A stretch of DNA of 38,071 nucleotides from Chthoniobacteraceae bacterium (GTDB taxonomy: Bacteria; Verrucomicrobiota; Verrucomicrobiia; Chthoniobacterales; Chthoniobacteraceae). The first letter of the stretch is position 1. The number at the start of each line of letters is the position of its first letter. Shown in pieces: positions 11,855 through 21,420 of the stretch. Under the pieces are notes generated by a model, which was given only the letters and a program-made list of their open reading frames with translations, had not been told where the DNA came from and made no database searches. The stretch is from positions 1 through 38,071 of the forward strand of contig CANJNZ010000042.1 in the NCBI GenBank assembly GCA_947476045.1, in the 5' to 3' direction. A program made the translations under genes and the position numbers.

Positions 11855-12559
11855 ATGCATACACGCCGCACAGCCATCAAAGCAATCGCCACCGCCACTG
11901 CAGCGCTCGCTACCACTAAGGTCTTCGCTCAGGTAACTCCGCCCGCCGAAGTCTTCAAACTGGCACCCCTCCCCTACGACTACGACGCGCTGGAACCTGT
12001 CATCGACGCGGAGACGATGAAGATTCACCACGACAAACATCATTCTGCCTACGTCGCAAAACTGAACGACGCCATCGCCAAAGCGCCTGATCTCGCAGGA
12101 AAGCCCATCGAGGAAATACTCACAGCGCTCGACAACGTGCCGGAAGCCATCCGTCCCGCGATTCGCAACCACGGCGGCGGTCACTATAATCACACGCTAT
12201 TTTGGCAGCATTTGAAAAAAGGCACCGGCGGACCTCAAAACGAACTGCTAAGGCATATCGAGAAAACATTCGGCTCATTCGTCAAATGGCAGGAACTTTT
12301 TTCGGACGCTGCCACAAAACAATTCGGGAGCGGTTGGGCATGGCTCGTCCTCCGCGAACACAAACTCACTGTAGAGGCAACCGCCAATCAGGACACCCCT
12401 CTCAGCACCGGCGGCACGCCAATCCTCGGCATCGATGTCTGGGAGCACGCCTACTACCTCAAATACCAAAATCGGCGCGCTGATTACATCAAAGCGTTTC
12501 AGGATGTCATCGATTGGGAATTCGCTGGCGAGCGCTTCAAAAAACTCAGCGCCAAGTAA
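11855..12559 (+). CDS. sodA: Exported Mn-type superoxide dismutase
   Basis: A 234-residue Fe/Mn superoxide dismutase that disproportionates superoxide to peroxide and oxygen. Metal ligands are His58 (KIHHDKHH), His113 (GGHYNHTLFW), Asp194 and His198 (GIDVWEHAYY). GGGH and Gln179 in TANQDTPL favour manganese. Unlike typical cytosolic SODs it has an N-terminal export signal with a twin-arginine (HTRRTAIKAI...LATTKVFAQ), suggesting folding with metal in the cytoplasm and Tat export to the periplasm. The gene stands alone; the downstream region holds the inverted-repeat element. Gene symbol is by family, and sodB-type naming is possible. Confidence 0.93.
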   Translation: MHTRRTAIKAIATATAALATTKVFAQVTPPAEVFKLAPLPYDYDALEPVIDAETMKIHHDKHHSAYVAKLNDAIAKAPDLAGKPIEEILTALDNVPEAIRPAIRNHGGGHYNHTLFWQHLKKGTGGPQNELLRHIEKTFGSFVKWQELFSDAATKQFGSGWAWLVLREHKLTVEATANQDTPLSTGGTPILGIDVWEHAYYLKYQNRRADYIKAFQDVIDWEFAGERFKKLSAK

Positions 12560-12592: not shown

Positions 12593-12810
12593 TGGCGCGT
12601 AGCGCCAGCCACTACGGTAGCCGTGTGCAAGGAGCGAAGCGACGCAGCCCACGGATCCGCCGCAAGAATCCATGCACCGCGTATGCGGTGCGACAAACGG
12701 TGGCGCGTGAATGGTCGCGCCGACTACGCGGCGCTTGCCGTTTCTTTTTCGATCCGTGGGTTACACTGCGCTTCACCCACGGCTACCGTAGTGGCTGGCG
12801 CTGCGCGCCA
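12593..12810. repeat. 218-bp MITE-like element with 33-bp terminal inverted repeats
   Basis: The left arm (12593-12625) and right arm (12778-12810) are inverse complements at 32 of 33 positions; the core motif is GCGCCAGCCACTACGGTAGC. Inner arms also pair (CCCACGGATC at about 12648-12657 with GATCCGTGGG). Both flanks touching the element read TAT, a possible 3-bp target duplication. It carries no plausible gene; a frame across it is an artefact of the palindrome. It fills the gap between the SOD gene and the DUF1080 gene. It could be a non-autonomous mobile element or large REP-type unit. Confidence 0.8.
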
Positions 12811-12864: not shown

Positions 12865-13629
12865 CTACTCCTTGAAGTCCGTATCCGCTGCGGTCAGATC
12901 TAGTTCCTTGATCCACGCGTTACGGTAGCGGACGTCGTGGCCTTCGCATTGGAGCTTGAGGCCGCCGGGCGTGTCGGTGATTCCTTTGCCGCCCTTGTTG
13001 CCGCCATCGAGGCCGGAGTTCGGCCCGCCGTGGACTTGGTTGATGGGGATGTTGGTGTGGACTTTGATGCCGTTGAAAAACATGGAGACGAGTGGCTTCT
13101 CGACCATTTTGCCGTCCTGAAAACGCGCGGCGCGGAAGGTGATGTCGTAGGAGTTCCACTGGCCGACGCCCTTGTAGGCGTGGTAGGGCGACTCGGTTTC
13201 GTTGATGACGGCGCCCATGCCGTGCTTGGTCTTGTCGCCATCAAGCACCTGGATTTCGTAGCGGTTTTGCAAATAGACGCCGCTGTTGCCACCGGGCTTC
13301 ATGATCAGAAATTCGATGTGCAGACGAAAATCGCGGTAGGCTTTCTTGGTGACGATGTCCGCTGTGCCATACTTCCCGCCAGCGGCGACTGGATCATCGC
13401 TCATCACGGCGCTGCCTTTATCCACGGGATCCTCCACGATTTTCCATTTGATCGGCATCGCGGATTTGAAGCCAGGCCCTTCCCAATAAATCCACTTGTC
13501 ATCCAGCATCGCACGCGAGCCGTCCATGATGAGCTCCGCGCCTGTTGGAGGTTTTGCGCCGACGCCGATTTGGGCAAATGCTGCGTGGCTGAGAGTGAGT
13601 GCGAGTGCGGTGAGGAGTCGTGCTTTCAT
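12865..13629 (-). CDS. Secreted DUF1080 (3-keto-disaccharide hydrolase-type) protein
   Basis: A 254-residue protein with signal peptide (MKARLLTALALTLSHAAFAQ) and one DUF1080 domain of the concanavalin-like jelly-roll type: YRDFRLHIEFLIMKPGGNSG, VYLQNRYEIQVLDG, QWNSYDITFRAARF and a C-terminal GGLKLQCEGHDVRYRNAWIKEL. These are the conserved blocks of DUF1080 proteins, some of which hydrolyse 3-keto-glycosides in the periplasm. The substrate is not predictable here. The start ATG 13629 gives a clean signal sequence. It fits the sugar-processing theme of ThuA, oxidoreductase and PQQ-like genes further on, but is not in an operon with them. Confidence 0.9.
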   Translation of the reverse strand: MKARLLTALALTLSHAAFAQIGVGAKPPTGAELIMDGSRAMLDDKWIYWEGPGFKSAMPIKWKIVEDPVDKGSAVMSDDPVAAGGKYGTADIVTKKAYRDFRLHIEFLIMKPGGNSGVYLQNRYEIQVLDGDKTKHGMGAVINETESPYHAYKGVGQWNSYDITFRAARFQDGKMVEKPLVSMFFNGIKVHTNIPINQVHGGPNSGLDGGNKGGKGITDTPGGLKLQCEGHDVRYRNAWIKELDLTAADTDFKE

Positions 13630-13724: not shown

Positions 13725-14186
13725 CTAAGCCTTCGCGACAGTTTTTACAGCAGCCTTAGCGTGTTTGGCCTTCTGCTTGTCACCATCCTGCGTGTTGTTT
13801 TGGGCAGCGGCTTTGTTTGCGGCTCTCATGTGTGCAGCTAGTGCTTTCTGGTGAGAATTGTCGTTATTAAAACGAACGACACCATGCGGCTTGCCTACAT
13901 GGACCTGACTAACGATTTTGCCCTGCCTGTCTTCCATTCCGGCCTTGGCGTAAAGAGCGGCGATCTCTTTTTCGTCGAGTTCTCCGTCATGATTCGTGTC
14001 TCCAATGAGCTGAGCGTTCGCTGATTGATTTTCGCTGCCTGCAATCTGCGCTCTCTTTTCCTTGTTTGCGCCAGCCGCTGCTTTTGCAGGCGCGGGCGTG
14101 TCCGTCTTCTTTGCGCCCTTGTGGCAGGCAAAAGCTGGCGTCGAGAAGGCGATTGCAAGGGCTAGGATGAGACTGATTTTTTTCAT
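13725..14186 (-). CDS. Secreted single-EF-hand protein
   Basis: A 153-residue protein with a signal peptide (MKKISLILALAIAFSTPAFA) followed by Cys21, and one canonical EF-hand loop DTNHDGELDEKE (residues 63-74) that should bind calcium. The rest is Ala/Lys-rich and probably flexible; HVGKPHGVVRFNNDNSH is the only other ordered-looking part. Its signal peptide and upstream region closely match those of the EF-hand gene at 17407-17766, including a shared 28-bp promoter-like element, showing either duplication or common regulation. It lies 88 bases beyond the FecR-LamG gene, behind its own promoter. Confidence 0.8.
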   Translation of the reverse strand: MKKISLILALAIAFSTPAFACHKGAKKTDTPAPAKAAAGANKEKRAQIAGSENQSANAQLIGDTNHDGELDEKEIAALYAKAGMEDRQGKIVSQVHVGKPHGVVRFNNDNSHQKALAAHMRAANKAAAQNNTQDGDKQKAKHAKAAVKTVAKA

Positions 14187-14211
14187 ACTGGTGTGATTGG
14201 TTGCGCGATGT

Positions 14212-14239
14212 AATAGCACGCGCCTGCAATTTTAGGACA
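14212..14239 (-). promoter_or_regulatory. Candidate ECF-sigma promoter of EF-hand gene
   Basis: On the minus strand TGTCCTAAA and GTGCTATT stand with starts 20 bases apart, 25 bases before the ATG at 14186. Exactly the same two blocks and spacing occur before the EF-hand gene at 17766. Taking TGTCCT and GCTATT as hexamers gives a 16-base spacer, normal for ECF sigma factors. Confidence 0.6.
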
Positions 14240-14274
14240 GCTAAATTAATGGTTTTTACCCAAGCAGTTCGGAC

Positions 14275-15789
14275 TCAGTTTGCGGCGACGGTATCTGGGG
14301 AGAGAAGCTGGTTCGTCCGCATGAGGTGGCGGATTTCCTGCGGCGAAAGCTGGCGGTCGGCGATGAGGAATTCGTCGAGCAGGCCTTGAAAGCGTTCGCT
14401 GCTTCCCGCTGCGCCGCCGAGCCAGAGCGCGCCCGCGTTTTCATCGCTGCGACGAAGGGCATGGCGGCCCGAGGGCGTTTCGAGTCTGCCATCCACATAG
14501 AGCGCGAGGCCGGGCTTTGTGGCGTTTTTTGGATTCGCGCCAAAGACGGTGGCGATGTGGTGCCAGCGTCCATCGCGCAGTGGCGTGGAGCCGATGAACC
14601 AGCCGTTGCCCGACTGCAATCGCAGCGCGCCCGGCGTGCCCTGCCCCGGTCGCGTGTTCGTGAGAAACTCGAAGAACGTTCCCTTGCCCATGGAGACACC
14701 GGCCAGCGCGCCATCGTTGGTTGGCGCTGTTTCGGAAAGTCGCGTCCAGAACGCCACAGTGCGTGCGCCACGTGGAAGCGCAGCGTCGAGCTTCGCAGTC
14801 GTGCTACCATCAAATGCGAGCGCCTTTCCCCATCGTCCCTCGCTCCAATGCTGCGAGCTTCCTTCGATGCGCAATGCTCCTGCGGAAAAGCCGTTCGTCT
14901 CCGAGGCCGCCACGTCGCCGGTGCCCTCATCAAAATGCCAGCGTGCATACGCCATCGGCCTCGCGCGGCGGACCATCGCGATTTTTCGCGCGAACCGCTG
15001 AAACTTCGCATCACTGTCGCGCACTTCGCTACCGCCGTTCTTTGCAAAACGCCGCGACTGCTTTTCGCGAAGCACGGATTTTTGCGAATGCCCGGTGTTG
15101 CGTGGCTGCACTTCAACCGCGCCTTTCAACACGAAAACCTCCGCCGCGCCATCGTCGCCGGCGGTCATGCTGAACTCGGTGCCGAGATCCACCACTTGCA
15201 CGGTGGCATTCGTGAGCGTGAAACCAATCGCCTCCTGCGGAACATTCGCCTTCACCGTGCCGCGCTGAAGCTCTGCCTCCCACGCGGAGCGCACGTCGAG
15301 CGTCGCCGGACCTTCGAGCACGAGCTGCGCGCCAGAGTCGAAGGTGATTTCTGCAAAGCCGGATTTTAGTTCGAGACGCTGTCCGGGCGCAAGTTCATCG
15401 CCGGGAGTCGCGGCAGCCCACTGGCAGTCTTTTGCCCCCGTAATTTGCGCGACCATTTCATCGCCATCCGCCGCAGCGTCGCCGCTCTTTCCGCCCATGA
15501 GCGAGCGACCAATCCATACGCCGATCAAAATCACCGCTGCCGCAGCGAGCGGAGAAATCCAGCGACGCCACTGAGGCGGACGAATGATGTTCAGCGGCTC
15601 AGGTGTCTGCATTTCCGACGCATAGCCGATGAGACTCGCCGAAAGAGCCATCGTGCGGACGTAAAAACGCCGCGCCTCATCGCTGGCGAGCAGCATTTCC
15701 TCCATGCGCGAACGCTGCGCATCCGCGAGCGTGTCATCCATCAATGCGCTACACAGTTCATTAAGCTCGACCCGCTCGATGTCGTTCAT
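14275..15789 (-). CDS. FecR-LamG membrane protein, probable anti-sigma factor
   Basis: A 504-residue protein. An N-terminal cytoplasmic helical segment (LCSALMDDTLADAQRSRMEE) precedes one membrane helix (~residues 78-98, WISPLAAAAVILIGVWIG). The extracytoplasmic part has a FecR domain with the signature VVDLGTEFSM and a C-terminal LamG/concanavalin-like domain (YARWHFDEGTGDV, RTVAFWTRL, DGRWHHIATVF, LYVDGRLE, GLLDEFLIADR). FecR proteins paired with ECF sigma factors control sigma activity from the membrane; LamG domains usually bind carbohydrate or protein. It overlaps the sigma gene by 4 bases (ATGA), so translation is coupled. Confidence 0.88.
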   Translation of the reverse strand: MNDIERVELNELCSALMDDTLADAQRSRMEEMLLASDEARRFYVRTMALSASLIGYASEMQTPEPLNIIRPPQWRRWISPLAAAAVILIGVWIGRSLMGGKSGDAAADGDEMVAQITGAKDCQWAAATPGDELAPGQRLELKSGFAEITFDSGAQLVLEGPATLDVRSAWEAELQRGTVKANVPQEAIGFTLTNATVQVVDLGTEFSMTAGDDGAAEVFVLKGAVEVQPRNTGHSQKSVLREKQSRRFAKNGGSEVRDSDAKFQRFARKIAMVRRARPMAYARWHFDEGTGDVAASETNGFSAGALRIEGSSQHWSEGRWGKALAFDGSTTAKLDAALPRGARTVAFWTRLSETAPTNDGALAGVSMGKGTFFEFLTNTRPGQGTPGALRLQSGNGWFIGSTPLRDGRWHHIATVFGANPKNATKPGLALYVDGRLETPSGRHALRRSDENAGALWLGGAAGSSERFQGLLDEFLIADRQLSPQEIRHLMRTNQLLSPDTVAAN

Positions 15790-16313
15790 GTCGCGGCCTC
15801 CGAGCTGAGTTGGTTCGTCACGCAGTCGTGCAAAAGTTTGCGCAAACGCGCGAGCGCCTTGTATGCGGCGACGAGTGAGCGCCCCGTGCGACGCGCGGCT
15901 TCCTCGACGTTGCTTTCATAGCGCGTGAGCAGCAATTCGCGGTCGCGTGTGGCGAGCTTTTGCAAACACCGCGCGAGCGCTTCGTGTCGCGCGTCCTGCT
16001 CGGGTGCGAGTTCGGCTGCGGTGTGCGCGACGGCTTCAAGCACCTTGTCGTCGAAGACAACTTTCGAGCGCGCATATTTCGTCCGTGAAGCACGCACCTG
16101 CCACCACGCAATCTGACACGCCCACGCCACGAAATCGGTGCCCAATGTGTAGTCGCCGAACTTTTCGCAAACGACCAGCGAGGTCTCCTGCAAAAGATCC
16201 TCCGCCGCGTGGCGGTCCGGCACGAGCGTGTAGATGTAGGAAAAAATGCGCCGCTGATTTTGCGTCATCAAGAGCACCAGCTCCTTCGTGCGGTCAGCGG
16301 CGGCGTTGGACAT
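15786..16313 (-). CDS. ECF RNA polymerase sigma factor (Rhodopirellula/Verrucomicrobium type)
   Basis: A 175-residue ECF sigma factor. Region 2 is visible as RIFSYIYTLVPDRHAAEDLLQET and FVAWACQIAWWQVRA; region 4 as LATRDRELLLTRYESNVEEA and the helix-turn-helix RRTGRSLVAAYKALARLRK. The pattern matches the small sigma factors typical of planctomycetes and verrucomicrobia that are paired with FecR/LamG proteins. It lies 2 bases after the stop of the EF-hand gene upstream (TAG CC ATG) and overlaps the FecR-LamG gene by 4 bases, giving a tightly coupled operon. The inducing signal is unknown; the EF-hand partners suggest a link with calcium. Confidence 0.92.
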   Translation of the reverse strand: MSNAAADRTKELVLLMTQNQRRIFSYIYTLVPDRHAAEDLLQETSLVVCEKFGDYTLGTDFVAWACQIAWWQVRASRTKYARSKVVFDDKVLEAVAHTAAELAPEQDARHEALARCLQKLATRDRELLLTRYESNVEEAARRTGRSLVAAYKALARLRKLLHDCVTNQLSSEAAT

Positions 16314-16315
16314 GG

Positions 16316-17320
16316 CTATAGTTTTATCTGACCGTCTTTGACGCCCGCTTTACCTTTGGGTGCCTGCGCCTTTGCCGCCGCAGCCGGGTCGCCGAGAGTG
16401 AGTATGCCGTTGATTTTCGCGATCTCATCCGTGTCGAGAACCTTGTTCGCGTTTTCGTCGTAAATATAGAGCCAGCTTTTTGGATTGCTGGCGAATGCTT
16501 TGCGAAGATTCATATCCTCAAGGCCGGTAATTTTACCGTCGTGATTGACATCAAACTCCCTGACCTCGGCTAGAGCGAGTTCGCTGATGGAAGAACCGTC
16601 CTTGGTGTCCTTCGTTTTGTTCTCAGGCTTCACTTCGGGTTTATTCTCCACCACAGGCACTTTGATCTTGGGAGCGGGTTTGGCCGGCCTCGGTTTGCCA
16701 AGCCTGACGTTTAGCGCAGCGATTTCTGAATCCTCTAATGTGCCGTTTTTATTCAAATCAAACGGCTTGAGATCGATGGTTGTAGCGAGAGCATTTCGGA
16801 TCGCCTGCACCTCGCCGCCTTCAATTTGATTCGTGCCATCCACATCAAAAGTTCTGGCCGTTTTCACCGGATAGGCCGGCACCGGTTTCGGCCCTGTGGT
16901 CGCAGCGGCTCCGATGGGCGCAGCGGCAGCGGCACCCGCACTCCCGGCATTGGCAGCGACATTGCCGACCTTGCTTAGCTCTGCTTTGAGAGCGTTGATT
17001 TCGCCGTCGTCAAACTGGCCGTTTTTATTGGTGTCGAACTTCCTGATGTCCATAGCCGATACGAATACTTCCTTCAGCTTCTTGATCTCCTCATCATCAA
17101 GAACGCCATTATTGTTAGCATCGAGCGACCTGATGACGGCGGTGCCTGTGAAATAATCCTTCAATTCCTGTATCTCCGCGCTGCTGAGCTGACCATTGCC
17201 ATCCCTGTCAAAAGCCTTGGCAGTGGCGAGCGGGTCACTGGCAGTCGAACTTCCTTCAGCGCCTGCCGCGAAGACAGGGGCTGATGAAGCCATCATAAAA
17301 ATGATTCCTAATGTTTTCAT
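16316..17320 (-). CDS. Secreted protein with seven EF-hand loops
   Basis: A 334-residue exported protein (signal peptide to about residue 19). Seven EF-hand-type 12-residue loops are visible: DRDGNGQLSSAE (38-49), DANNNGVLDDEE (67-78), DTNKNGQFDDGE (96-107), a degenerate DVDGTNQIEGGE (159-170), DLNKNGTLEDSE (188-199), DVNHDGKITGLE (257-268) and DENANKVLDTDE (288-299). An Ala/Gly linker (120-145) and a Lys/Pro-rich linker (208-240) separate groups of loops. It should bind several calcium ions outside the cytoplasm. ATG 17320 gives the best signal peptide. The gene ends 2 bases before the sigma factor gene. Confidence 0.87.
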   Translation of the reverse strand: MKTLGIIFMMASSAPVFAAGAEGSSTASDPLATAKAFDRDGNGQLSSAEIQELKDYFTGTAVIRSLDANNNGVLDDEEIKKLKEVFVSAMDIRKFDTNKNGQFDDGEINALKAELSKVGNVAANAGSAGAAAAAPIGAAATTGPKPVPAYPVKTARTFDVDGTNQIEGGEVQAIRNALATTIDLKPFDLNKNGTLEDSEIAALNVRLGKPRPAKPAPKIKVPVVENKPEVKPENKTKDTKDGSSISELALAEVREFDVNHDGKITGLEDMNLRKAFASNPKSWLYIYDENANKVLDTDEIAKINGILTLGDPAAAAKAQAPKGKAGVKDGQIKL

Positions 17321-17406
17321 GTGCGTTTGCATGGCCATGTCGAATGAATCGCACACGCAGCGCATTTCACAGCTGGAAAACTAATGCGATGCTGCGAGCA
17401 GCCAGA

Positions 17407-17766
17407 CTAGGCCGCTGGCTCTTTCTTTTTAGCAGCGCACTTGCCTTTCCCTGCGCCTTTACCGGCACCCTTGCCTTTGCCATGCTTGCCCATTCTAGCG
17501 TTAAGCGCGGTGATTTCGTCGTCGTCAATCTGGCCGTTGGCATTTTTGTCGAGAGCCTTGAGATCCGCATTGCCAGCGAGCGCACTTTTCAGCGCATCAA
17601 CTTCTTTGCCGTCAATCTGGCCGTTCTTATCGGTGTCAAAACCCTTCGTGGCTTTCATGCATGCACGGCCACCTTTGTTAGCGCCTGCCTTGCCGCCTTT
17701 GCCTGCGGCAAAAGTTGGTGCGGTGAATGTAATTGCGAGGGCGAGGATGAGACTGAGTTTTTTCAT
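17407..17766 (-). CDS. Small secreted double-EF-hand protein
   Basis: A 119-residue protein with signal peptide (residues 1-20), two canonical EF-hand loops DTDKNGQIDGKE (44-55) and DKNANGQIDDDE (73-84) forming a likely calcium-binding pair, and a Gly/Lys-rich C-terminal tail (KGKGAGKGAGKGKC). It is the most upstream gene of the probable EF-hand/sigma/FecR-LamG operon; 86 bases separate it from the seven-loop gene with no convincing terminator between. Signal peptide and upstream element are near-copies of those of the gene at 13725-14186. Confidence 0.82.
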   Translation of the reverse strand: MKKLSLILALAITFTAPTFAAGKGGKAGANKGGRACMKATKGFDTDKNGQIDGKEVDALKSALAGNADLKALDKNANGQIDDDEITALNARMGKHGKGKGAGKGAGKGKCAAKKKEPAA

Positions 17767-17800
17767 ATTGGTGTGTTGGTGTGATTGGTTACATCGCTGA

Positions 17801-17828
17801 AATAGCACTGTATTGAAAATTTAGGACA
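17801..17828 (-). promoter_or_regulatory. Candidate ECF-sigma promoter of the EF-hand/sigma operon
   Basis: The minus strand carries TGTCCTAAA and GTGCTATT with starts 20 bases apart, as at 14212-14239. The downstream leader also shares AACCAATCACACCA. The element is 34 bases before the ATG at 17766 and would place the sigma gene under its own control if transcription continues through the 86-base gap. Confidence 0.6.
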
Positions 17829-17857: not shown

Positions 17858-19111
17858 TTAGCTTCGCGCTCCCAATTTCCAAAGATGATTGTCCGAACGA
17901 ATGTAGATCGCGCCGTCTTCCACTATGGGCGATGCGAGCGTCGCTTCGCCGAGTTCGTTTTTTGAAATCACCTCAAAAATCTTCCCCGCTTTCAGCACCG
18001 TCGTCGTGCCGGTTTCGTTGAGAAAATACACACGCCCCCCGGCGAGCACAGGCGATGCGGAATAGTTACCGCCGAGCCGCTCGCTCCAATGCACATCGCC
18101 GGTGCGCGCATTGACGCATGTTGCAATTCCCGCGTCGGAGACAAAGTAAAGTTCGTCGCCGACAACAATCGTGGACGCACTCAACGGCGCACCCTTCTTG
18201 ATTGTCCACGCGATGTTCGTCGCTGTGGCATCGCCTTTCGCACCTTCGGGCCGGATCGCGATCAGATTCGCAATGTCGAAGCCCGTCGCGATGAAGAGGA
18301 GCCCGTGCGCAAACACCGGACGTGGCACCAGCGAATAACCTTCTCCGTAGGCGACGCGCCAGATTTCGTGCCCGTCCTTCGGATCGTAAGCGCCGACAAA
18401 TCCGCTGCCCGGCAGAATAATCTGCATGACGCCGCCGAGCGAAATGGGCAGCGGCGTGCAAAAGGAAAAGGTCTTTTTTGCCATCGTGTTTCGAGGCGTT
18501 TTCCAGCGCACATTTCCAGTGGCGGAGTCGAGCGCGACGACGAACGGTTCCTTTGCACCATCGCAACTAAAGATGAGCGCATCACCGACGAGCGCGGGCG
18601 AACCACCGTTGCCGTGCTGTGGCGGATACTTCAGCCCGTTTTGCTTCCACACGACTTTGCCCGCGAGATCCAGCGCCGCAGTTCCCATGTGGCCGAAGTG
18701 AACATAGAGCCTGTCCTCCGTCACGATGGGCGTGGGGCTGGCGAGCGAGTTCTTGCGATGGATGGAGCCTGTCGTCGCCGCGTCCGGATTAAAGACCACC
18801 GTATCCCAAAGTATGCGCCCGTCCTTTGCATCGAGACATAGCGCGTGTAAAGTCACGTCACCCTGCCCCGGCTCGCCCACCGCTGAAGTGAGATAGATGC
18901 GCCCTTTAGACAACACCGGCGACGACCAACCCTTCCCGGCGATTTCCACCTTCCAAGTCACGGCATCCGACGCGCTCCACTTCTGCGGCACATTCGTAGC
19001 AGCGGATATCCCCTGCCCGTCCGGCCCGCGAAATTGCGGCCACCCGGCTTCACCAGCAAGCGCAGAGGCAGCCGTAAATACGATGCAGGGGAATGAAGAA
19101 AATACTGTCAT
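17858..19111 (-). CDS. Secreted PQQ-like beta-propeller repeat protein
   Basis: A 417-residue exported protein, paralogous to the one at 807-2069: it starts its mature part with GWPQFRGPDGQGIS and shows propeller blades such as GWSSPVLSKGRIYLTS, LASPTPIVTEDRLYVHFG, GGSPALVGDALIFSCDG, NYSASPVLAGGRVYFLNETG and a final LASPIVEDGAIYIRS. GDVTLHALCLDAKDGRILW-type turns close the blades. No dehydrogenase catalytic motif is seen, so the function stays open. A signal peptide is present, although its N-terminus (MTVFSSFPCIVFTAASALAG) is short of basic residues, so a different start is possible. It lies upstream of, and on the same strand as, the EF-hand locus. Confidence 0.88.
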   Translation of the reverse strand: MTVFSSFPCIVFTAASALAGEAGWPQFRGPDGQGISAATNVPQKWSASDAVTWKVEIAGKGWSSPVLSKGRIYLTSAVGEPGQGDVTLHALCLDAKDGRILWDTVVFNPDAATTGSIHRKNSLASPTPIVTEDRLYVHFGHMGTAALDLAGKVVWKQNGLKYPPQHGNGGSPALVGDALIFSCDGAKEPFVVALDSATGNVRWKTPRNTMAKKTFSFCTPLPISLGGVMQIILPGSGFVGAYDPKDGHEIWRVAYGEGYSLVPRPVFAHGLLFIATGFDIANLIAIRPEGAKGDATATNIAWTIKKGAPLSASTIVVGDELYFVSDAGIATCVNARTGDVHWSERLGGNYSASPVLAGGRVYFLNETGTTTVLKAGKIFEVISKNELGEATLASPIVEDGAIYIRSDNHLWKLGARS

Positions 19112-20485: not shown

Positions 20486-20577
20486 GTGCGCGCTTGCGAT
20501 TTCCCCCAAGGAACCGCCACCCTCCACGATTGTAATCGCAGCGCTCAGTGCGCTCCTTCAAACAAATCTACCACATC

Positions 20578-21420
20578 ATGAAAAAACTCCTCGTCCTCGC
20601 GCTCGTCGCACTCACTGGTTCCGGCTTTGCCGCTGAAAAGAAGCGCGTCATCGTCTGCACCGTCACCACCGGCTTCCGCCACAGCTCGATTCCCTTCGCG
20701 GAAAAAACGCTGGAGAAACTCGGGAAGGAAAGCGGCCTGTATGAAGTCGTGGATTTCGCACGCCAGCCCGCGAGCAAAGATCCCGCACTCATGAAGGAGA
20801 GCATGGACAAGCTTTCGCCGGAAAATTTGACGAAGAACAAAATTGACGCGGTCATTTTCGCAAACACCACGGGCGACCTCCCGCTGCCGGATCGCGATGG
20901 ATTCATCAAATGGATCGAGGAAGGCCACGGCTTCTGCGGTATGCACAGCGCGGGCGATACTTTCCACGGATTCCCCGGCTATCTGAATATGTTGCAGGCG
21001 GAGTTCAAAGGCCATGGACGTCAGGTGCCCGCCGATCTCGTCGCTGGTGACAAGACGCACCCCGCCAATGCGGGCATCGGCGACGCATTTCCGATCTCGC
21101 TGGAGGAAATGTATGAGTTCAAGGACGGCAGCCACAACCGTGATAAAATCCGCGCGCTTTGGTTCCTGCGCCATCATCCGCAGAATCCAAATCAAGCCGG
21201 TTATTTTCCCGTTTCGTGGTGCCGCGAAGCTGGCAAAGGCCACGTCTTTTACACCTCGCTCGGCCACCGCGAAGACCTCTGGGATGAAACCGACGCCGTG
21301 AAGGACCGCAAAAACTCGCCGGAAATCAGCAAGCAATATCAGGCGCACATCCTCGGTGGAATCAAATGGGCGCTCGGCCTCGAAAAAGGCGACGCGACTC
21401 CGAATCCCGAAGTAAAGTAA
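20578..21420 (+). CDS. Secreted ThuA-domain protein
   Basis: A 280-residue exported protein (signal peptide MKKLLVLALVALTGSGFAAE) with a ThuA/trehalose-utilisation domain, a class I glutamine-amidotransferase-like fold without amidotransferase chemistry. Diagnostic blocks are VIVCTVTTGFRHSSIPFAE, IDAVIFANTTGDLPLPDRD, GHGFCGMHSAGDTFHGFPGY and a C-terminal GHVFYTSLGHREDLW with ILGGIKWALG. ThuA is linked to uptake and 3-keto conversion of disaccharides. ATG 20578 was chosen for the signal peptide. It probably forms an operon with the esterase gene 66 bases downstream. Confidence 0.92.
   Translation: MKKLLVLALVALTGSGFAAEKKRVIVCTVTTGFRHSSIPFAEKTLEKLGKESGLYEVVDFARQPASKDPALMKESMDKLSPENLTKNKIDAVIFANTTGDLPLPDRDGFIKWIEEGHGFCGMHSAGDTFHGFPGYLNMLQAEFKGHGRQVPADLVAGDKTHPANAGIGDAFPISLEEMYEFKDGSHNRDKIRALWFLRHHPQNPNQAGYFPVSWCREAGKGHVFYTSLGHREDLWDETDAVKDRKNSPEISKQYQAHILGGIKWALGLEKGDATPNPEVK

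Follow-up and report, generated by a model that had tools for sequence, protein, structure and literature searches.

Besides many ECF sigma factors, Verrucomicrobiota and Planctomycetota possess exported proteins in large families (PSD1, DUF1501, DUF1080 and small EF-hand proteins) whose role is largely unknown. In the FecI/FecR systems (PF04773), the gene for an ECF sigma factor is overlapped by a downstream gene encoding a single-pass, FecR-domain membrane protein. The ECF41 sigma factors have a promoter of the form TGTCACA-N16-CGTC and a small regulon located beside the sigma gene (PMC3426412). Passages on DUF1080 assign to that family a characterised 3-ketotrehalose hydrolase (PMC9007349) and describe PF06439 proteins as mostly exported and tied to glycan or disaccharide use (PMC9007349; for planctomycetes, PMC5673643). 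The locus described here appears to be of a known kind, an auto-regulated ECF sigma factor with a FecR-like partner: it shares the overlapping gene pair with FecI/FecR and, with ECF41, a TGTC-type −35 element, a similar overall element length and a small regulon beside the sigma gene.

The locus lies in a 38,071-nucleotide stretch of DNA (‘the window’) from a Chthoniobacteraceae bacterium. Comparisons with related genomes indicate that a 28 bp element occurring there very probably constitutes the promoter of an ECF sigma factor encoded at 15786–16313. In Verrucomicrobiota, a membrane-tethered switch (an ECF sigma factor plus a lectin-type sensor) appears to activate its own operon and a small exported set that is typically headed by a secreted protein able to bind calcium, the signal being a 28-letter element that is conserved across the group.

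Genes and repeated element of the locus

The features of the locus, all on the minus strand, are as follows.

17828–17801 (−): putative promoter element P1, TGTCCTAAA-N11-GTGCTATT, exact match, at the head of the sigma operon
17407–17766 (−): EF-hand leader gene, encoding a 119-residue secreted protein with two canonical EF loops and a Lys/Gly-rich tail (PF00036 just over its cut-off)
16316–17320 (−): second exported EF-hand protein, with ∼6–7 EF-like loops (PF00036, PF13499)
15786–16313 (−): ECF sigma factor of the TIGR02989 subfamily (1e-47)
14275–15789 (−): FecR-LamG protein, candidate anti-sigma factor and sensor (PF04773; PF13385, Laminin_G_3)
14239–14212 (−): putative promoter element P2, TGTCCTAAA-N11-GTGCTATT, exact match, with an ortholog in genome G001
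13725–14186 (−): exported protein with one canonical EF loop, its leader and signal peptide paralogous to those of the EF-hand leader gene
12865–13629 (−): DUF1080 / 3-keto-disaccharide hydrolase (PF06439, 6e-28)

The sigma factor belongs to TIGR02989 (162 bits, against a cut-off of 124.55) and scores over the cut-off of PF04542 and slightly under that of PF08281. The gene preceding it probably starts with MKTLG at position 17320; it has a counterpart in a related genome, G006, and none between the EF-hand leader and sigma genes of G001. The 2-base and 4-base junctions reported in the first-pass annotation correspond to a gap between the EF-repeat and sigma genes and to an overlap between the sigma and FecR-LamG genes, respectively. 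That annotation also counted three contiguous EF-hand proteins, of which two do contain Pfam EF-hands; the third (13725–14186) is a weak case, displaying a single canonical loop (DTNHDGELDEKE) and no significant match to Pfam, and its designation as a full EF-hand protein was rejected, with only one loop qualifying. It is related to the EF-hand leader by tblastn (E 1.4e-10). The term ‘contiguous’ is likewise loose, with the first two EF-hand genes lying ∼40–85 nt apart (depending on the start codon) and the third lying 88 nt from the FecR-LamG gene.

The pattern TGTCCTAAA-N11-GTGCTATT matches the window exactly at two sites (P1 and P2) and none of 100 shuffled sequences, confirming an earlier description of a shared 28 bp element upstream of two EF-hand genes. 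Both exact copies present in the 4.37-Mb source genome are those at this locus, and allowing up to two mismatches across the assembly added one site (with two mismatches), as compared to none for a reversed-pattern control. The distance to the downstream ATG is 34 nt from the end of P1 (EF-hand leader gene) and 25 nt from the end of P2 (gene of the one-loop protein). P1 has the consensus YGTCCNAAW-N13-GCTATT, and its orthologous element is seen in both G001 and G006. No sigma-70-like promoter was found at the P1 or P2 site, and a sigma-70 reading of the two was rejected. A third likely element, CGTCCCAATTCCCGGCATATGTGCTATT, is located in the source genome (G000:C43:7665–7692; L003), 18 nt upstream of the ATG of a PSCyt1-PSCyt2 gene. 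A weaker candidate, TGTCCTAAAAATTGCAGACGGCGGTGTT, lies 24 nt upstream of a gene for a 120-residue exported protein of unassigned family (G000:C14:10428–10455; L112).

Several additional features surround the locus. An open reading frame at 11855–12559 encodes a protein resembling superoxide dismutase, with a signal of the export type at its N-terminus (MHTRRTAIKAIATATAALATTKVFAQ, read from the list of open reading frames). Between it and the DUF1080 gene (12593–12810) is a 33-nt inverted repeat, with arms that are 97% complementary and separated by 152 nt; these arms recur as facing pairs ∼175–178 nt apart on seven contigs of the source genome (C6, C10, C13, C44, C60, C66 and C77), and the repeat resembles a MITE or REP-type element. 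A PQQ-like beta-propeller gene (17858–19111) and a ThuA-family gene (20548–21420) were also noted in the flanks of the locus; no element was found upstream of the latter.

The element in related loci and the predicted regulon

Orthologs of the sigma factor in other Verrucomicrobiota exhibit 59–93% identity, and the element heads the sigma operon in loci from Spartobacteria, Chthoniobacteraceae, Opitutae/Opitutaceae and other records. A search of relatives for the pattern upstream of sigma and EF-hand genes, as suggested in the first-pass annotation, located it (with clade variants allowed) upstream of sigma and on its strand in 24 of 31 related loci, as well as in front of EF-hand genes detached from sigma. 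The reversed windows of the same 31 loci yielded no site and their downstream regions one. The seven loci lacking the element comprise three whose contigs are too short to reach the expected site (L039, L041 and L047), a distant relative (L054), one with an imperfect copy only (L037) and two with no element upstream of sigma in the available sequence (L038 and L046); the exact form is also missing genome-wide from certain carriers of the ortholog (G199 and G297). On the opposite strand of the upstream windows, sites were present in 11 loci, and those inspected belong to divergent partner genes.

A motif-blind count of dyads in 20 dereplicated operon-head regions ranked GTCC-N19-TATT first (15 of 20 regions, versus five or fewer in shuffled sequences). 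The clade variants GCTATT, GCTGTT, GGTATT and GATATT are all kept at the operon head, directly upstream of sigma where no EF-hand gene comes between them, and a comparison of orthologs indicates that the spacer has diverged around a retained core. Across 28 genomes reached via sigma loci, the pattern TGTCYNRAW-N13-GCTATT has 51 sites, most of them at the sigma locus, and its reverse has none. A single bipartite promoter-like element stands before both the sigma operon and other targets across species.

The usual gene order is the element, a small secreted EF-hand protein (∼100 residues, two loops and a tail rich in Lys), sigma and FecR-LamG, and orthologs of the EF-hand leader come first in the sigma operon at many other loci. 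Opitutae-type loci carry a TonB receptor gene in the operon, close to the EF-hand gene, and have ThuA and glyoxalase-like genes after FecR-LamG. In L030, where the operon has a TonB receptor (PF00593), a DUF1080 gene is element-linked as well. Further elements, often as a divergent pair, precede a gene for a Tat-exported TIM-barrel protein that is followed by DUF1080, and one for an alginate-lyase-like protein. Within the family of the window, elements precede PSCyt2/PSD1 genes in G002, G007, G009 and G011 and PSCyt1-type genes in G005 and the source genome. Redoxin genes are also among the unrelated genes that carry an element. Downstream of P2, the one-loop protein is followed by the DUF1080 hydrolase, which is probably read from P2; the order is the same in G001 (L024). 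The regulon seems, from this placement of sites, to extend to the DUF1080 hydrolase (a 3-keto-sugar family) and PSCyt-type proteins, and in other families to TonB receptor, alginate-lyase-like and TIM-barrel proteins. Deployment of exported EF-hand proteins by such a regulon, as originally envisaged, is well borne out, with EF-hand genes carrying the element both beside sigma and away from it.

The gene adjoining sigma in nearly all loci encodes FecR-LamG, the domain layout of which was derived from Pfam, an alignment of 18 sequences, an AlphaFold model (mean pLDDT 78.7) and Foldseek. The protein consists of an N-terminal helical domain (residues 3–60), a transmembrane helix (∼81–97) and a beta domain (114–254) in the model, with a FecR domain (PF04773, over its cut-off) and a C-terminal ConA-like LamG domain. 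Its FecR domain, single membrane pass, helical N-terminus and position beside sigma are those of a FecR-type protein. The best domain-sized Foldseek match was to domain 4 of an arabinanase; the matches to lectin-type domains of many proteins reflect a common ConA-like fold only. We tentatively favor a glycan or sugar as the cue, at a little under even confidence; this reading rests on the lectin-type fold and on neighboring genes, which include candidate glycan or 3-keto-sugar enzymes near the element (DUF1080 after P2 in the window and in G001; alginate-lyase-like, TIM-barrel and DUF1080 proteins elsewhere).

The first-pass annotation had suggested that the regulon possibly senses calcium or a surface. 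In the form considered here, the EF-hand proteins would be part of the sensing device. An EF-hand gene does come first in the sigma operon at most loci examined, and the EF loops retain their acidic ligand positions. However, an EF-hand component does not accompany the switch wherever it is present: two clades of the same genus (L026/L029/L043 and L027/L028) retain sigma, FecR-LamG and the element although their loci contain no EF-hand gene, and in two Lentisphaerae-titled records (L031:105–578 and L050:5363–5887) a small, His/Lys-rich exported protein with no match to Pfam replaces the EF-hand gene beside sigma. Since clades devoid of an EF-hand gene beside sigma keep the switch, the EF-hand proteins are probably outputs and dispensable to it. 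With EF-hand genes as targets, FecR-LamG as the conserved sensor candidate and the other targets related to sugars or glycans, we found no support for calcium sensing and consider it unlikely. Equally doubtful is an elaboration in which calcium-loaded, exported EF-hand proteins would feed back on FecR-LamG, such that the switch integrates glycan with calcium or surface status and also commands the PSCyt/PSD1 families of this superphylum.

Coupling of the element to the sigma ortholog

Among 388 evenly sampled genomes of Verrucomicrobiota, the strict element was found in four of six genomes with the sigma ortholog versus seven of 382 without it (P ∼5e-6). In a plain phylum-wide count, sites are no more frequent than in the reversed control (15 element sites versus 18 control sites), which makes the count uninformative; isolated matches in genomes lacking the ortholog are at chance level, and what is informative in this sample is only the association of the element with sigma. 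Three near-identical TGTCCGAAAACGG...GCGCTATT copies in one genome without the ortholog (G157 contigs C10, C28 and C31; L095, L104 and L106) look like a dispersed repeat. Nine of ten genomes of the same genus as the source have element sites. Many of the compared genomes were assembled from metagenomes and have broken contigs; in G006, which is 76% complete, no sigma gene was detected and the contig ends inside the EF-repeat gene. A search of viral contigs for relatives of sigma returned none.

The element could be a genuine promoter or binding site and yet serve a different factor with incidental control over the locus, for instance a repressor or a TIGR02989 paralog of the sigma factor; related genomes do encode many paralogous sigma factors. 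The sites nevertheless track the ortholog. G011 encodes several sigma paralogs; its three sites all lie off the contigs on which a paralog was found, and one of them is at the ortholog. The tenth member of the genus (G008) has neither the ortholog nor the element. The location before sigma's own operon and the −35/−10-like spacing also fit autoregulation, and we regard control by another factor as improbable, slightly more so than calcium sensing.

Shared ancestry of the two EF-hand genes of the window was offered at the outset as another source of the similarity. The 5′ ends of the pair do align well around the element, throughout the leader and signal-peptide sequences, such that the pair alone could not prove a promoter. 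The occurrence of the element elsewhere is not explained in this manner. In G003, G004 and G005, an EF-hand gene ∼50% identical to the leader gene is located away from sigma and keeps the 28 bp element (TGTCCCGTT...GCTATT in G004 and G005; CGTCCCGTT...GCTATT in G003), and sigma carries its own copy; the element therefore follows the EF-hand and sigma genes separately, and local duplication is insufficient. That the elements are alike only through duplicated 5′ ends, with no sigma-specific promoter role, is very improbable and the least credible of the three alternatives, since despite the detectable relationship between the two proteins it is already contradicted as a sufficient explanation by these detached genes, by the diverged spacers around a constant core and by the element's presence before unrelated genes (PSCyt/PSD1, TIM-barrel, alginate-lyase-like and sigma itself).

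At the level of sequence, the element is established, as are its conservation and its link with the sigma ortholog. The first proposal, of an ECF regulon that controls itself through a common bipartite promoter, is strongly supported by the conservation across families, the de novo motif, the association with sigma and the detached EF-hand genes.

Proposed mechanism and comparison with described systems

In the following scheme we infer that sigma binds the element, that FecR-LamG acts as its anti-sigma factor, that the operon is autoregulated, that the cue is a glycan and that the genes of each unit are co-transcribed. The element would act as a −35/−10 promoter for the sigma factor, which would be held by the membrane-bound FecR-LamG protein encoded by the overlapping next gene. 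The periplasmic FecR/LamG portion would sense a cue, most likely a glycan or sugar, and sigma would be freed. It would then transcribe, from P1, the operon that encodes it (EF-hand leader, EF-repeat protein, sigma and FecR-LamG), from P2, a second unit (the one-loop protein and DUF1080 hydrolase), and probably the PSCyt1/PSCyt2 gene at G000:C43:7665; the EF-hand proteins would represent its core output rather than its sensor. A promoter tied to one sigma ortholog would define a regulon that joins several exported families and provides site-by-site predictions.

In the literature searched, nothing relevant emerged on ECF factors paired with FecR and LamG in Verrucomicrobia, on EF-hand proteins alongside ECF factors in planctomycetes or on DUF1501/DUF1553 with sigma, and no paper mentioned the TIGR02989 model. 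Nor did this literature offer a precedent for such a promoter combined with a LamG sensor and an EF-hand-led regulon; a predicted promoter for this sigma group may already be published in the ECF re-classification (10.1093/nar/gkaa1229). The terms ‘sigma factor’ and ‘ECF’ are absent from PMC5673643, and the passages on DUF1080 pathways (PMC9007349, PMC5673643), which have PF06439 proteins in common with the locus, connect these to neither ECF sigma factors nor EF-hand proteins.

The window sigma scores as a member of TIGR02989 (Sig-70_gvs1, of the Rhodopirellula/Verrucomicrobium type), of which one orthologous subgroup here gains a predicted promoter and regulon. Unlike ECF41 (PMC3426412), the element has GCTATT in place of CGTC at −10 and CCNAA in place of ACA, and the fused C-terminal regulatory domain of ECF41 contrasts with a separate FecR-LamG protein. 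The resemblance to FecI/FecR extends in some families (such as L030) to a TonB receptor gene in the operon, whereas Pfam revealed no TonB-dependent receptor in the window operon, such as a FecI/FecR/FecA uptake system would have for its signal transducer. The locus further differs from FecI/FecR in its extra C-terminal LamG lectin-type domain, its EF-hand-led operon, its sugar- and cytochrome-type targets and its promoter, TGTCC...GCTATT.
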